Shown here: positions 19,201 through 23,618 of the stretch, in pieces
Layout of the letters: each line of letters begins with the position of its first letter
Position numbering within the stretch: position 1 is the first letter of the stretch
Assembly: GCF_900105595.1 (NCBI RefSeq)
Contig: NZ_LT629784.1
Coordinates: 1,178,001-1,242,000 of the forward strand
Length of the DNA stretch: 64,000 nucleotides
Direction of reading: 5' to 3'
From: Stappia sp. ES.058
GTDB taxonomy: Bacteria > Pseudomonadota > Alphaproteobacteria > Rhizobiales > Stappiaceae
Position numbers and translations under genes: made by a program
The notes under the pieces: generated by a model
Database searches by the model: none
Told to the model about the DNA's origin: nothing
The model's input: the letters and a program-made list of their open reading frames with translations, nothing else

Positions 19201-22200
19201 ATGAACGACGGCTCGCAACCCCATCCGCCAGCGATCGCGCAAACCGCCGGTCGCGCCGACATCATTGTCCAGATCGTGGGCGACGGGAACTCCGTCGTGT
19301 CCGGCCATCCGGCCTTGAAGCTCACCCGCTTCGATACCCTGGCCACGGTGCTCACCGACGACACGGGCCGGCCGGTCGAAACCGACCTTCTGCGCGCCTA
19401 CAAGAAAGACACGATCCCGCTGATCGGCCGCGACGAGACGCTCGCGACGCTACGCGCGTGGCTTGCCTCGGACGAGCCAATATCCGCGCTCGGCATGGTC
19501 GGCCGCGCGGGGCGGGGCAAGACGCGCCTCGCGCTGGAACTGTGTCGGGAGCTTGCCGGGCAGGGCTGGCGGGCCGGGTTTCTCACCACGGACCGGCTCG
19601 AGGCGTTCCGCAAACAACAGAACGTGACGGAGTGGGGATGGAACGCGCCGACACTTGTTGTTGTCGACTATGCGGCCGGCCAGGTCGCGCCCTTGCGCCG
19701 CTGGCTTGTCGAGCTTGCCGACCACCGGCGTCGGCTGGCGCCGGTCTCGCCGGAAGCGCCACCGCTGCGGATTGTGCTGCTGGAGCGTCAATACAACCCG
19801 CAGGTCGGCTGGTGGGCCGATCTCTTCGCCGGCGGCGACACGGAGGGCGAGGCCCTGCGGTCGCTGCGCCATCGCGAAGTGCCGCTCGATCTTCCCGCCA
19901 TCACGGACCCGGCCGTGCAACGCGACATCCTGGTCGAAACCGGCAAACGCCTCGGCAACGCGGAAGCCGAGAGCTGGGGCGACCGCCTGACGGACGAACA
20001 GGTGTCGGGGCTGACCTGGGGCGGCGAGCCGCTCTTCCTGATGATGGCCGCGATGCTGGTGGCCGAGAATGGACCGGTCTACCTGACCGGGCTGACGCGG
20101 CATGATCTGGCGGGCAACGTGGCGAAGCGCGAGCTGACCCGCATCGAGAGGCTCGCGCGGGCGCGCCTTGGCGATGGCGACGCGCCTGCGTTTCTCACGC
20201 ATATGGCCGGCGCGTCGACCCTGCTCGGCGGCCTCGATCTCGGAAACGACCTGCGCGATCTGATCGCGGCGGAAAGCCAAGAGACCGGGCGAACAGAGGC
20301 CGGCAGTCCGGCCGGCATCGAAGGCGCGCTGCGCGACGCACTGCCCGGCGAGCCGGGCCGGATTGCGCCGATCGAGCCGGATGCGGTGGGCGAAGCGGCG
20401 CTGCTGACGCTGTTCGGCGATCTCGCGGGAGAAGAGCGCGACGACGATTTGATGCGCCTGGCGCGTCGAGCCCCGCCGGCGGCCGCCAGCGTGCTCATGC
20501 GCCTTTGTCAGGACTATGCGCCGACGGGCCGCGAAGAGCCGCTGCGCTGGGTCCAGGCGTTGGGACCAGCATTCGACGAGGATCTCGGCGCCCGTCTTGC
20601 GATCGCAGATAGCATTCCCCGTCACACAACGATCTTGCGGGAGTTCGCCGCGGCGTTCCAGGACGCCGTCACGGCGCGTTTGTCGGCCATGGTCGATCGC
20701 AATCACGATCTCGATCTGCGCGGGCTGTACGCTGGCAATCTCAACAACCTGGCGAACCGGTTGAGCGACCTCGGCCGGCGGGAGGAGGCGCTGTCGGCGG
20801 CGGAGGAGGCGGTGGGGCTCTATCGGGCACTTGCGGCGGCGCGTCCGGAGGCGTTCACGCCGGATCTGGCGATGAGCCTCAACAACCTGGCGAACCGGTT
20901 GAGCGACCTCGGCCGGCGGGAGGAGGCGCTGTCGGCGGCGAAGGAGGCGGTGAGGCTCTATCGGGCACTTGCGGCGGCGCGTCCGGAGGCGTTCACGCCG
21001 GATCTGGCGGGGAGCTTCAACAGCCTGGCGAACGTCTTGAGCGACCTCGGCCGGCGGGAGGAGGCGCTGTCGGCAGCGGAGGAGGCGGTGGGGCTCTATC
21101 GGGCACTTGCGGCAGCGCGTCCGGAGGCGTTCACGCCGGATCTGGCGATGAGCCTCAACAACCTGGCGAACGTCTTGAGCGACCTCGGCCGGCGGGAAGC
21201 GGCGCTGTCGGCGGCGGAGGAGGCGGTGGGGCTCTATCGGGCACTTGCGGCGGCGCGTCCGGAGGCGTTCACGCCGGCTCTGGCGATGAGCCTCAACAAC
21301 CTGGCGAATGTCTTGAGCAACCTCGGCCGGCGGGAGGAGGCGCTGTCGGCGGCGGAGGAGGCGGTGGGGCTACGCCGGTCGCTTGCGGCGGCGCGTCCGG
21401 AGGCGTTCACGCCGGATCTGGCGACGAGCCTCAACAACCTGGCGGGCTTCTTGAGCAACCTCGGCCGGCGGGAGGAGGCGCTGTCGGCGGCGGAGGAGGC
21501 GGTGGGGCTACGCCGGTCGCTTGCGGCGGCGCGTCCGGAGGCGTTCACGCCGGATCTGGCGGGGAGCTTCAACAACCTGGCGGGCTTCTTGAGCGACCTC
21601 GGCCGGCGGGAGGAGGCGCTGTCGGCGGCGGAGGAGGCGGTGGGGCTCTATCGGGCACTTGCGGCGGCGCGTCCGGAGGCGTTCACGCCGGATCTGGCGA
21701 TGAGCCTCAACAACCTGGCGAGCTTCTTGAGCGACCTCGGCCGGCGGGAGGAGGCGCTGTCGGCGGCGGAGGAGGCGGTGGGGCTGCGCCGGTCGCTTGC
21801 GGCGGCGCGTCCGGAGGCGTTCACGCCGGATCTGGCGGGGAGTTTCAACAACCTGGCGAGCTTCTTGAGCGACCTCGGTCGGCGGGAGGAGGCGCTGTCG
21901 GCGGCGGAGGAGGCGGTGGGGCTGCGCCGGTCGCTTGCGGCGGCGCGTCCGGAGGCGTTCACGCCGGATCTGGCGATGAGCCTCAACAACCTGGCGAACC
22001 GGTTGAGCAACCTCGGCCGGCGGGAGGAGGCGCTGTCGGCGGCGGAGGAGGCGGTGGGGCTGCGCCGGTCGCTTGCGGCGGCGCGTCCGGAGGCGTTCAC
22101 GCCGGATCTGGCGACGAGCCTCAACAACCTGGCGAGCGTCTTGAGCAACCTCGGCCGGCGGGAGGAGGCGCTGTCGGCGGCGGAGGAGGCGGTGGGGCTG

Positions 22201-22506
22201 CGCCGGTCGCTTGCGGCGGCGCGTCCGGAGGCGTTCACGCCGGATCTGGCGACGAGTCTGGCCGTTCTCGGGCTTCAGCACCGCGCGGCCGGGCGCCCAG
22301 ACACCGAGATCGCGTGTTTTCGCGAGGCGGCCGAGCGGCTTTGGCCCTATGTCGAGCAGTACCCGGAAGGATTGGGAAACCTGTTCACCGCGATTTTGCA
22401 AAACCTCGTGCGCGCTCTGCAGGCGACAGGCACAAGCGAGGTCGAGATCCGGAACGCGCTTACCGAGTTTGGTGTGCATATCGCCGAGGACGACCCGGAT
22501 GCGTAG
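19201..22506 (+). CDS. STAND-like P-loop ATPase with TPR array and RHIM/BASS-like N-terminus
   Basis: A 1101-residue protein built like an NLR immune receptor. A short N-terminal segment holds ADIIVQIVGDGNSVV (residues 19-33), which resembles RHIM/BASS amyloid motifs. An ATPase region follows with Walker A GRAGRGKT (101-108) and Walker B TLVVVDYAA (151-159); then about 250 helical residues, then eleven near-identical 46-residue TPR-type repeats (514-1019) and a degenerate last unit. ATG 19201 is chosen because the motif follows closely, but there is no good ribosome site; GTG 19153 and TTG 19183 are alternatives. I do not recognise a catalytic effector domain, so it probably acts as a sensor or switch for the partner protein at 22668-23327. 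Function is inferred, not known. Confidence 0.72.
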   Translation: MNDGSQPHPPAIAQTAGRADIIVQIVGDGNSVVSGHPALKLTRFDTLATVLTDDTGRPVETDLLRAYKKDTIPLIGRDETLATLRAWLASDEPISALGMVGRAGRGKTRLALELCRELAGQGWRAGFLTTDRLEAFRKQQNVTEWGWNAPTLVVVDYAAGQVAPLRRWLVELADHRRRLAPVSPEAPPLRIVLLERQYNPQVGWWADLFAGGDTEGEALRSLRHREVPLDLPAITDPAVQRDILVETGKRLGNAEAESWGDRLTDEQVSGLTWGGEPLFLMMAAMLVAENGPVYLTGLTRHDLAGNVAKRELTRIERLARARLGDGDAPAFLTHMAGASTLLGGLDLGNDLRDLIAAESQETGRTEAGSPAGIEGALRDALPGEPGRIAPIEPDAVGEAALLTLFGDLAGEERDDDLMRLARRAPPAAASVLMRLCQDYAPTGREEPLRWVQALGPAFDEDLGARLAIADSIPRHTTILREFAAAFQDAVTARLSAMVDRNHDLDLRGLYAGNLNNLANRLSDLGRREEALSAAEEAVGLYRALAAARPEAFTPDLAMSLNNLANRLSDLGRREEALSAAKEAVRLYRALAAARPEAFTPDLAGSFNSLANVLSDLGRREEALSAAEEAVGLYRALAAARPEAFTPDLAMSLNNLANVLSDLGRREAALSAAEEAVGLYRALAAARPEAFTPALAMSLNNLANVLSNLGRREEALSAAEEAVGLRRSLAAARPEAFTPDLATSLNNLAGFLSNLGRREEALSAAEEAVGLRRSLAAARPEAFTPDLAGSFNNLAGFLSDLGRREEALSAAEEAVGLYRALAAARPEAFTPDLAMSLNNLASFLSDLGRREEALSAAEEAVGLRRSLAAARPEAFTPDLAGSFNNLASFLSDLGRREEALSAAEEAVGLRRSLAAARPEAFTPDLAMSLNNLANRLSNLGRREEALSAAEEAVGLRRSLAAARPEAFTPDLATSLNNLASVLSNLGRREEALSAAEEAVGLRRSLAAARPEAFTPDLATSLAVLGLQHRAAGRPDTEIACFREAAERLWPYVEQYPEGLGNLFTAILQNLVRALQATGTSEVEIRNALTEFGVHIAEDDPDA
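20740..22257 (+). repeat. Eleven in-frame 138-bp tandem repeats
   Basis: Units of 138 bases (46 codons) follow each other without gaps and are almost identical at DNA level. Differences are concentrated in a few codons: NRL/NVL/GFL/SFL/SVL after the NNLA core, LYRA or LRRS, and the MSL/GSF/TSL choice. Coding is continuous across the array, which encodes the helical repeats of the STAND protein. Near identity, even at silent positions, implies recent duplication or gene conversion, and the copy number is likely unstable between strains. Confidence 0.95.
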
Positions 22507-22516
22507 GGGTGGGCCG

Positions 22517-22666
22517 ATGAAGGTGCATCATGAGCGACAAACAGGACGCTCATGTCCCGTGCTTAAGCTGGATTGTCAGGAATGCAAATTCAATCGAGCG
22601 GGGTTTGTTGAACTTGAATCTGAGAAATATTTCCGAAAAATAGAATTTAAAATATTTGGTCATTGA
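22517..22666 (+). CDS. Possible small 49-residue protein in the STAND operon
   Basis: An ATG ten bases after the STAND stop codon opens a 49-codon frame (starting MKVHHERQTGRSCPVLKLD) that ends one base before the next start. AGGGGTGGG lies just upstream. The product has three cysteines (spacing CX6CX2C) and a charged, aromatic C-terminal part. Its DNA becomes AT-rich half-way, as does the start of the next gene. The tight packing supports a real gene, but there is no homologue that I recognise, and it could be leftover sequence. If real it is a third member of the putative immune operon. Confidence 0.4.
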   Translation: MKVHHERQTGRSCPVLKLDCQECKFNRAGFVELESEKYFRKIEFKIFGH

Positions 22667-22667
22667 T

Positions 22668-23327
22668 ATGAATAATAAAGGGGTCAGGGTAAATAGTATA
22701 GTTGAATTTCTTGGTCTTGGTGGGCGAGAGGACCTTTACTCTGATTCGCGAGGATATTTCATTCACGAGGAGACTCATTGGGATATCGTAATCAAAACCG
22801 CAACATTAGCGCGACAGTTAAAAAAAGAGGCGGATGGTGCTCTAAACGAAGAGATAATGAGTTTTCTCATTGTTGAGCAGTATCATCGTAGCGTTCGGGC
22901 AAAGGCATTGTTCGGTACTGAAGGGAGGAGTGGTGTGGATGATTTGACAATTTCGGCGCTCGCAATGAACTGGCTTGCATCTCAAGCTAAAGCGTTCGGG
23001 CAAGGTCTCGCCGGCCGGCTGACAAGGGATGCGGAAGCCAAGCTCTATGACTGGTTGAAAGCCAGGTTCGAAAGCGCGGGCAAGGGGGATCTGACGACGC
23101 TGGAAGCGACGCCGGACGATCCGCTTGCGGTCGAGACGGCGAAGGTCGGGCTTGCGCAATTGCTGCGGGAGAACCCGGAATATGTCGAGGAGTTGCGCGC
23201 GCTATGGGGCGCGCTCGGGGCGGAAACCGGTGACGTTAGGCAGAGTGTGAACACCGGCGGCGGATCAATTGGCGGCAGCGTGACCCAGGTCGTCGGGTCC
23301 AACAACACGTTTGGCAAGACCGACTGA
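22668..23327 (+). CDS. Partner protein with C-terminal RHIM/BASS-like motif
   Basis: A 219-residue protein next to the STAND gene. The first 100 residues (mixed alpha, no known domain) are encoded by AT-rich DNA. The rest is helical (LTRDAEAKLYDWLKARF, LAQLLRENPEYVEELRALWG) and encoded by GC-rich DNA, so the gene looks chimeric. The C-terminus is Gly/Asn-rich and ends in GGSVTQVVGSNNTF, matching the N-terminal VQIVGDGNSV of the ATPase (common pattern Q-[VI]-V-G-x-x-N-[ST]). In NLR-associated amyloid signalling the effector carries the motif at its C-terminus and the receptor at its N-terminus; that is the layout here. The N-terminal domain would then be the effector, of unknown activity. ATG 22668 is favoured over a non-ATG start at 22656. 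Confidence 0.7.
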   Translation: MNNKGVRVNSIVEFLGLGGREDLYSDSRGYFIHEETHWDIVIKTATLARQLKKEADGALNEEIMSFLIVEQYHRSVRAKALFGTEGRSGVDDLTISALAMNWLASQAKAFGQGLAGRLTRDAEAKLYDWLKARFESAGKGDLTTLEATPDDPLAVETAKVGLAQLLRENPEYVEELRALWGALGAETGDVRQSVNTGGGSIGGSVTQVVGSNNTFGKTD

Positions 23328-23542: not shown

Positions 23543-23618
23543 TGGCTCCCCGGGCCGGACTCGAACCAGCGACCCAGCGGTTAACAGCCGCTTGCTCTAC
23601 CAACTGAGCTACCGGGGA
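23543..23618 (-). tRNA. tRNA-Asn (GTT)
   Basis: A 76-base cloverleaf on the minus strand. Acceptor stem TCCCCGG pairs with CCGGGGA, the discriminator is G and CCA is encoded. The anticodon loop CTGTTAA gives GTT (Asn), and the T arm has the GGTTCGAGTCC sequence. T-rich DNA follows the 3' end and could stop transcription. It borders the STAND island, a common kind of integration site. Confidence 0.97.

Follow-up and report, generated by a model that had tools for sequence, protein, structure and literature searches.

A candidate amyloid-type signaling pair in Stappia

In bacterial amyloid signaling, BASS motifs (bacterial amyloid signaling sequences) lie on the N-termini of NLR receptors and the C-termini of Bell proteins (PMC7889193, PMC8086366), and the RHIM/PP motifs are described as having the core G-[IV]-Q-[IV]-G (PMC7885112; here and below, papers are cited by PMC identifier and for the excerpts on which we draw). 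We report a pair of adjacent genes in a 64,000-nucleotide stretch of the alphaproteobacterium Stappia sp. ES.058 (contig NZ_LT629784.1, positions 1,178,001 to 1,242,000; hereinafter the window, whose coordinates are used throughout), which is best read as a proteobacterial version of the BASS/Bell-NLR type of amyloid signalosome. The pair consists of a STAND/NLR-like receptor and a small, predicted-helical partner, and we put at roughly 0.7 the probability that the two form an amyloid-type signalosome through related motifs in their facing termini. This estimate draws on sequence features: the facing motifs, which are conserved and co-vary across loci; an operon-like gene order in relatives; three natural fusions; and a slot at the receptor N-terminus that holds the motif or, in several homologs, a known effector domain. 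Since most of the relatives that could be checked keep the arrangement, and three receptor-partner fusions exist, the pair is likely to be a built-in alarm with a predicted cell-killing partner.

The BASS/Bell-NLR layout of a receptor with an N-terminal motif beside a small protein with a C-terminal motif is present in the window. As in the systems outlined in PMC7889193, PMC8086366, PMC9815663, and PMC12261475, the genes are adjacent, the motif is N-terminal on a STAND/NLR protein and C-terminal on a small helical one, the partner usually has a hydrophobic helix, and TIR-type domains occur as alternatives. Unlike in those systems, the motif is longer (two GxxN units), its core has one additional residue, and some members are single fused chains. 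By architecture, the pair can also be likened to the fungal PNT1/HELLP system (an NB-ARC-TPR receptor, PP motif, and HeLo-like effector; PMC7889193), with which it shares a two-gene layout, a tetratricopeptide repeat (TPR) sensor, and facing motifs. The original prediction, made from the DNA alone, had proposed an NLR pair joined by a RHIM/BASS-type motif; its facing-motif layout, co-occurrence, and co-variation were borne out by the results below, whereas a strict RHIM/BASS3 core was not. A literature search by title and abstract found no paper describing this proteobacterial family.

The receptor gene (19201..22506, + strand), delineated as an open reading frame (ORF), encodes a protein of 1101 aa with an N-terminal motif, a STAND NTPase, 11 TPR units, and a C-terminal cap. 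The NTPase core (19381..20130, +) displays a Walker A motif (GRAGRGKTR), a Walker B motif (LVVVDYA), an IVLLER segment with a conserved arginine, and a GxP-like GGEPLF, the corresponding columns being invariant in our alignments A1 and A4. Pfam searches recovered TPRs along with weak matches to AAA_16 and nSTAND_NTPase5, and an AlphaFold2 (AF2) model of 520 residues (predicted local distance difference test [pLDDT] 89.5) matched NB-ARC and ORC/AAA+ structures, as well as EfAvs5 (9jap), in Foldseek searches. With its Walker A and B motifs, sensor arginine, GxP-type motif, and a nucleotide-binding domain joined to a helical/winged-helix core, the receptor is, by motifs and fold, a STAND NTPase whose core is predicted to be NLR-like; the original prediction had seen an ATPase without a classical NACHT/NB-ARC look, which on this evidence belongs with the STAND proteins all the same. 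Searches with residues 1-500 as query recovered 107 homologs.

Antiphage STAND proteins of the Avs, bNACHT, and CARD-NLR kinds (e.g., Caulobacter LypABC; PMC13236601) likewise join a repeat sensor to an NTPase of the STAND or Orc1-like type. Unlike Avs/bNACHT proteins, the receptor has no fused enzymatic effector, the likely effector being a separate motif-tagged protein. We rejected a single-protein defense of the Avs/bNACHT type, the N-terminus of the window receptor holding the motif only and no Avs or bNACHT model being matched; the window proteins had no match to PADLOC models at e-values up to 0.001, and the sole match at e-values up to 1 was to mad8 (0.018).

Related motifs in the facing termini

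The receptor-side amyloid-like motif occupies residues 20-33 (DIIVQIVGDGNSVV; 19258..19299, +), as delimited by matches to a partner-tail profile and by conserved columns, and the partner-side motif, TQVVGSNNTF, lies at the partner C-terminus (23283..23312, +). These agree with the sites first proposed, VQIVGDGNSV at receptor residues 23-32 (19267-19296) and TQVVGSNNTF at 23283-23312. The window's reading frames of at least 80 aa total 81,096 residues, in which the pattern proposed with these sites has exactly two matches, against 0.0009 expected from residue frequencies; since it was derived from these very matches, only their placement in the facing termini of neighboring genes is informative. 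A profile independent of that pattern was built from 23 partners of other loci, using their last 45 residues and including neither the window partner nor any receptor. Searched against the window frames, it ranked the window partner first (full-sequence e-value 1.8e-5, the score coming partly from the end of the helical domain) and the receptor next (0.009), all remaining frames having e-values >2. At an independent e-value <0.01, the same profile matched 64/107 receptors within their first 80 residues versus 0/107 after shuffling of the first 140 receptor residues (five shuffled records match elsewhere).

Alignments made without imposing the core spacing nonetheless yielded it: across 45 aligned receptors, V23, Q24, and G27 hardly vary, and the same is true of Q118 and G121 across 24 aligned partners. 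Upstream of the core, and again not imposed, both sides share Q-x-A-x-V-x-G-x-x-N (Q -13, A -11, V -9, G -7, N -4). For column counts, motifs were picked by the pattern Q-x-x-[GSN] followed by D/S/N in receptors and by Q-x-x-G in partners. Directly after the core glycine, 61/77 receptor motifs have Asp (D, S, or N being allowed) and 15/24 partner motifs have Ser; a Lys stands three residues before the Gln in 11/24 partners. It is possible, though we advance it only tentatively, that these sequences constitute an unclassified proteobacterial motif class of the two-rung form GxxN...QIxGxGN, with a built-in direction code (V-Q-I-x-G-D on receptors, K-x-x-Q-I-x-G-S on partners) such that receptor stacks would recruit partners rather than partners self-igniting, and with single-chain members that would join sensor, switch, and executioner with a motif in each part; the comparison with BASS behind this proposal covers example peptides.

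Like the RHIM, PP, and BASS3 motifs, the sequences on both sides of this receptor-effector pair have a Q-[IV], then G-x-x-N, and then a hydrophobic residue. Unlike the G-[IV]-Q-[IV]-G core given for RHIM/PP (PMC7885112), the core here, V-Q-I-x-G, is one residue longer (Q-[IV]-x-G-[DS]-x-N); likewise, a Frankia BASS3 peptide listed in Table 2 of PMC8086366 reads VQVGDGN, one residue shorter than VQIVGDGN. Our motif profiles matched BASS3 peptides weakly, with 14 and 6 of 1,000 shuffles scoring as high for the partner profile and 54 and 107 for the receptor profile. RHIM was absent among the 22 Pfam families that match the receptor at e-values up to 1, and among the best 25 of the 29 that match the partner family. 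A strict RHIM or BASS3 identity is accordingly unsupported, and we rejected it: G-[IV]-Q-[IV]-G is one residue shorter than the core seen here, and the receptor has no RHIM profile match.

The partner is a small, predicted-helical protein

The partner had been viewed as an ORF starting at 22656 with an N-terminus of no recognizable kind, an impression traceable mostly to the wrong start codon. The true start is very likely the GTG at 22935, because a database protein (P0108) has exactly this 130-aa form, a ribosome-binding site (GGGAGG) precedes this codon, and the G+C content of third codon positions (GC3) is 0.39 in the 93 codons before it versus 0.72 in the partner and 0.81 in the receptor NTPase. 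Used as a database query, the longer ORF matched only P0108 itself, and searches of plasmids, phages, and Pfam found no relative of the 93-codon stretch. The partner gene is thus placed at 22935..23327 (+), with a predicted helical domain at about residues 1-95 and a disordered motif tail (on the evidence of P0108, the family alignment A3, and the AF2 model), and is separated from the receptor gene, GC-rich like itself, by an AT-rich spacer of 428 bp (22507..22934, +; GC down to 0.39) that includes the doubtful 5′ extension from 22656.

A profile of five partners recovered 27 proteins at e-values up to 1e-3, of which 24 were aligned (A3) as a domain of about 90 residues plus the C-terminal motif; P0132, which stops before the tail, and P0134 and P0135, with varying tails, were left out (P0134 has the Pfam domain HetE-N). 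Pfam searches with the A3 members gave scattered matches only (best e-value 0.0075, among the best 25 of 29 families); NCBIfam had no match for P0108, nor PADLOC for the longer partner ORF. The AF2 model of the partner (mean pLDDT 71.1) places helices within residues 3-93, with pLDDT <50 over residues 99-130, including the motif, and in 21/24 partners the first helix is hydrophobic (mean Kyte-Doolittle value of at least 1.2 over 17 residues). From sequence and model, the partner looks Bell-like, with a small predicted-helical domain, a usually hydrophobic first helix, and a C-terminal motif. About 215 bp past the partner gene lies a tRNA-Asn gene (23543-23618, -), a possible integration hotspot.

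Linkage, fusion, and co-variation in relatives

The search covered 67 loci: an NTPase ORF (e-value up to 1e-6) is present in 60 and a partner-profile match (e-value up to 1e-3) in 11; no partner-profile match occurs without a receptor, and that in L079 is the receptor's own ORF. The 24 close receptors (e-value <1e-40) divide into 13 with and 11 without the motif, as judged by inspection, the variant forms in L083 and L094 being counted. Setting aside motif-bearing receptors at or near a contig end (L080, L094, L112, and L114) and motif-less ones with little or no downstream DNA (L047, L089, and L091), the partner is present in 7/9 motif-bearing loci (the window, L077, L078, L081, L083, L113, and, as a fusion, L013) and in 0/8 motif-less ones. 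The hypergeometric probability of this split is 36/19448 (~0.002), with the qualification that these are non-independent loci (one genome contributes both L088 and L090). The two motifs thus occur together in homologous loci, as the original prediction would have it. At one further locus, L103, a partner adjoins a broken receptor. In the more distant relatives L099, L100, and L101, the partner lies upstream and a different motif is paired (e.g., STVIGTQIN with STIIGSQHN); the partner profile detects the partners of L099 and L101, not that of L100. By eye, the motifs of these three loci are like an archaeal BASS3-like peptide shown in PMC8086366.

Three proteins fuse receptor and partner, with a copy of the motif in each part: L013 from Azohydromonas australica, and P0071 and P0086 from Muricoccus radiodurans, the latter two being protein records read at the protein level. 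The C-termini of P0071 and P0086 are a complete partner domain plus motif and are among the strongest partner-profile matches. The fused Azohydromonas protein (L013:3713-10312, ~2,200 residues) additionally has beta-propeller matches before its motif-NTPase-TPR part.

Motif variants also co-vary between the paired proteins at the family level, as recovered by a swap test in which pairs and motif borders were picked by hand and ancestry was uncontrolled. True pairs scored 46.0 versus 27.3 for swapped ones across 12 pairs (p=5e-5, the lowest value obtainable with 20,000 permutations), and 47.6 versus 36.5 across eight close pairs (p=3e-4). A clear case is L081, with VQASESTVTIT on the receptor and VQAVGSTVKIT on the partner. 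When neighboring genes were scanned, true pairs stood out in L077 (z=4.5), L078 (8.3), L081 (6.0), L113 (6.6), L099 (4.8), L100 (6.6), and L101 (8.8).

The N-terminal slot and the TPR array

Using the partner profile, the motif was found in 65/85 receptors with at most 90 residues before the NTPase profile (74/85 if a receptor-derived profile is added, a circular count) and in 4/22 with longer N-termini (5/22 with that addition). Pfam identified TIR domains in the long N-termini of P0065 and P0082, SIR2 in P0084, and a weak phosphorylase match, below cut-off, in P0100, and nothing in those of P0072 and P0093; further TIR and SIR2 annotations came with the homolog search. The motif, being found mostly in short N-termini, with TIR and SIR2 in long ones, therefore occupies the slot that in some other family members holds known effector domains. 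In P0039 and P0042 the NTPase is the same but the N-terminus is of a different, GRD type, which suggests that signaling motifs can be swapped on one receptor backbone.

The TPR sensor array (20740..22256, +) comprises 11 units of 138 bp with a 94% match (Tandem Repeats Finder). Of 42 codon columns compared, 13 differ in amino acid and 6 in codon only; the variable columns include 3, 10, 11, 14, and 32, which are the most variable across the 41/107 homologs with at least four TPR units of the same period. Among the 10 inner units of the window array, the ratio of amino acid-changing to silent differences (pN/pS; descriptive values given without a significance test) is 0.80 overall, 1.56 in columns 1-16 (the first helix), and 0.43 in the remainder. 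This concentration of variation in the first helix fits a fast-changing recognition surface. Near-identical units with variation focused on some positions are also reported for the TPR repeats of fungal NLRs, which are described as internally highly conserved with diversifying positions (PMC4986451); mean internal repeat identity is at least 0.85 in 3/41 homologs.

Proposed mechanism and alternatives

On the model of STAND and BASS biology, from which ligand sensing, oligomerization, templating, and lethal output are all extrapolated, the TPR array would bind an invader-derived ligand, and ATP-dependent opening of the ligand-bound receptor would lead to oligomers with clustered N-termini. The clustered receptor motifs could then nucleate a cross-beta stack that recruits the partner tail and templates it into the same fold, whereupon the clustered helical domains might injure the membrane or bring the cell to a halt in some other way, in the manner of abortive infection. 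Unlikely, though worth serious consideration, is that the shared motif is a docking tag through which receptor and partner would bind in a conventional beta-sheet or beta-arch assembly of finite size, with no amyloid templating. The linkage, fusion, and co-variation evidence all fit docking equally well, and effector-associated domains are described as coupling conflict systems through paired small-domain copies in adjacent genes (PMC7159879); against this, the short motif abounds in Q, N, G, and V, is situated in a low-confidence, probably disordered model tail, and is similar to the aggregating BASS3 peptides of Table 2 in PMC8086366, albeit with a weak profile match.

Several observations weigh against an amyloid-type signalosome, whether in the family or in the window itself. 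Neither the linkage count nor the permutation test removes shared ancestry, and in L079 (with a truncated receptor frame) and L120 the motif occurs with no partner. Three of the eight close pairs in the swap test are fusions, a receptor's own partner ranks top in 7/12 pairs and in only 3/8 close ones, and in the neighbor scan six unrelated pairs pass z=3.5, whereas the window pair and L083 do not stand out at z>3.5. The window pair has a weak swap-test score (28, rank 5/12), and its partner motif is divergent: a score at least as high is reached by 15/1,999 shuffles of the last 32 residues alone and by 7/2,000 of those residues within the whole protein, and with the receptor-motif profile the window partner has an e-value of 2.8. 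Moreover, the first helix of the window partner (0.75) ranks in the bottom three of 24 for hydrophobicity, and the AT-rich spacer of 428 bp compares with about 3-4 bp in L077 and L081.

The weak partner motif, weakly hydrophobic helix, and AT-rich spacer mean that the window pair may be diverging or decaying. We regard it as rather improbable that an AT-rich segment has inserted itself between the genes and that the motif of the partner is drifting, so that the pair may no longer work here while its relatives are functional: the low-GC spacer, weak pair score, and first helix would all fit, but both frames are intact, the partner has a good ribosome-binding site and normal GC3, and the TPR array is homogeneous, as described for fungal NLRs. 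Very improbable is that the receptor controls gene expression or metabolism as a MalT-like STAND protein, with the partner as its co-regulator and neither taking part in immunity or cell death. STAND NTPases with TPR sensors do include non-immune regulators, Foldseek matched a chain of the maltose-regulation entry 8bob (which we take to be MalT), and the window proteins lack PADLOC matches at e-values up to 0.001; against this, Pfam shows no DNA-binding domain in the receptor, homologs bear TIR, SIR2, or weak phosphorylase domains at the motif's place, and the fast-changing repeat positions suggest a recognition surface.

If the amyloid-type reading of the pair is right, such immune signaling extends into proteobacteria, including Azohydromonas australica DSM 1124 and Muricoccus radiodurans, and genetics and phage challenge may be feasible in such named strains and species. 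The fused members and the Asp/Ser asymmetry after the core glycine would further offer a route to how an amyloid signal stays silent and one-directional. NTPase relatives are sparse: 9/385 genomes of the class at e-values up to 1e-15, 19/398 of the phylum at 1e-20, 2/379 in the order of Azohydromonas at 1e-30, 5/31 in the order of genome G316 at 1e-25, 1/9, 1/15, and 1/40 in three other orders, and 1/347 in the phylum of genome G1203. The genomes of L077, L078, and L081 belong to the class of the window, and Azohydromonas is betaproteobacterial. The genome of the window also encodes, at L076, a second, distant, and motif-less STAND-type NTPase in a frame of 1408 aa.

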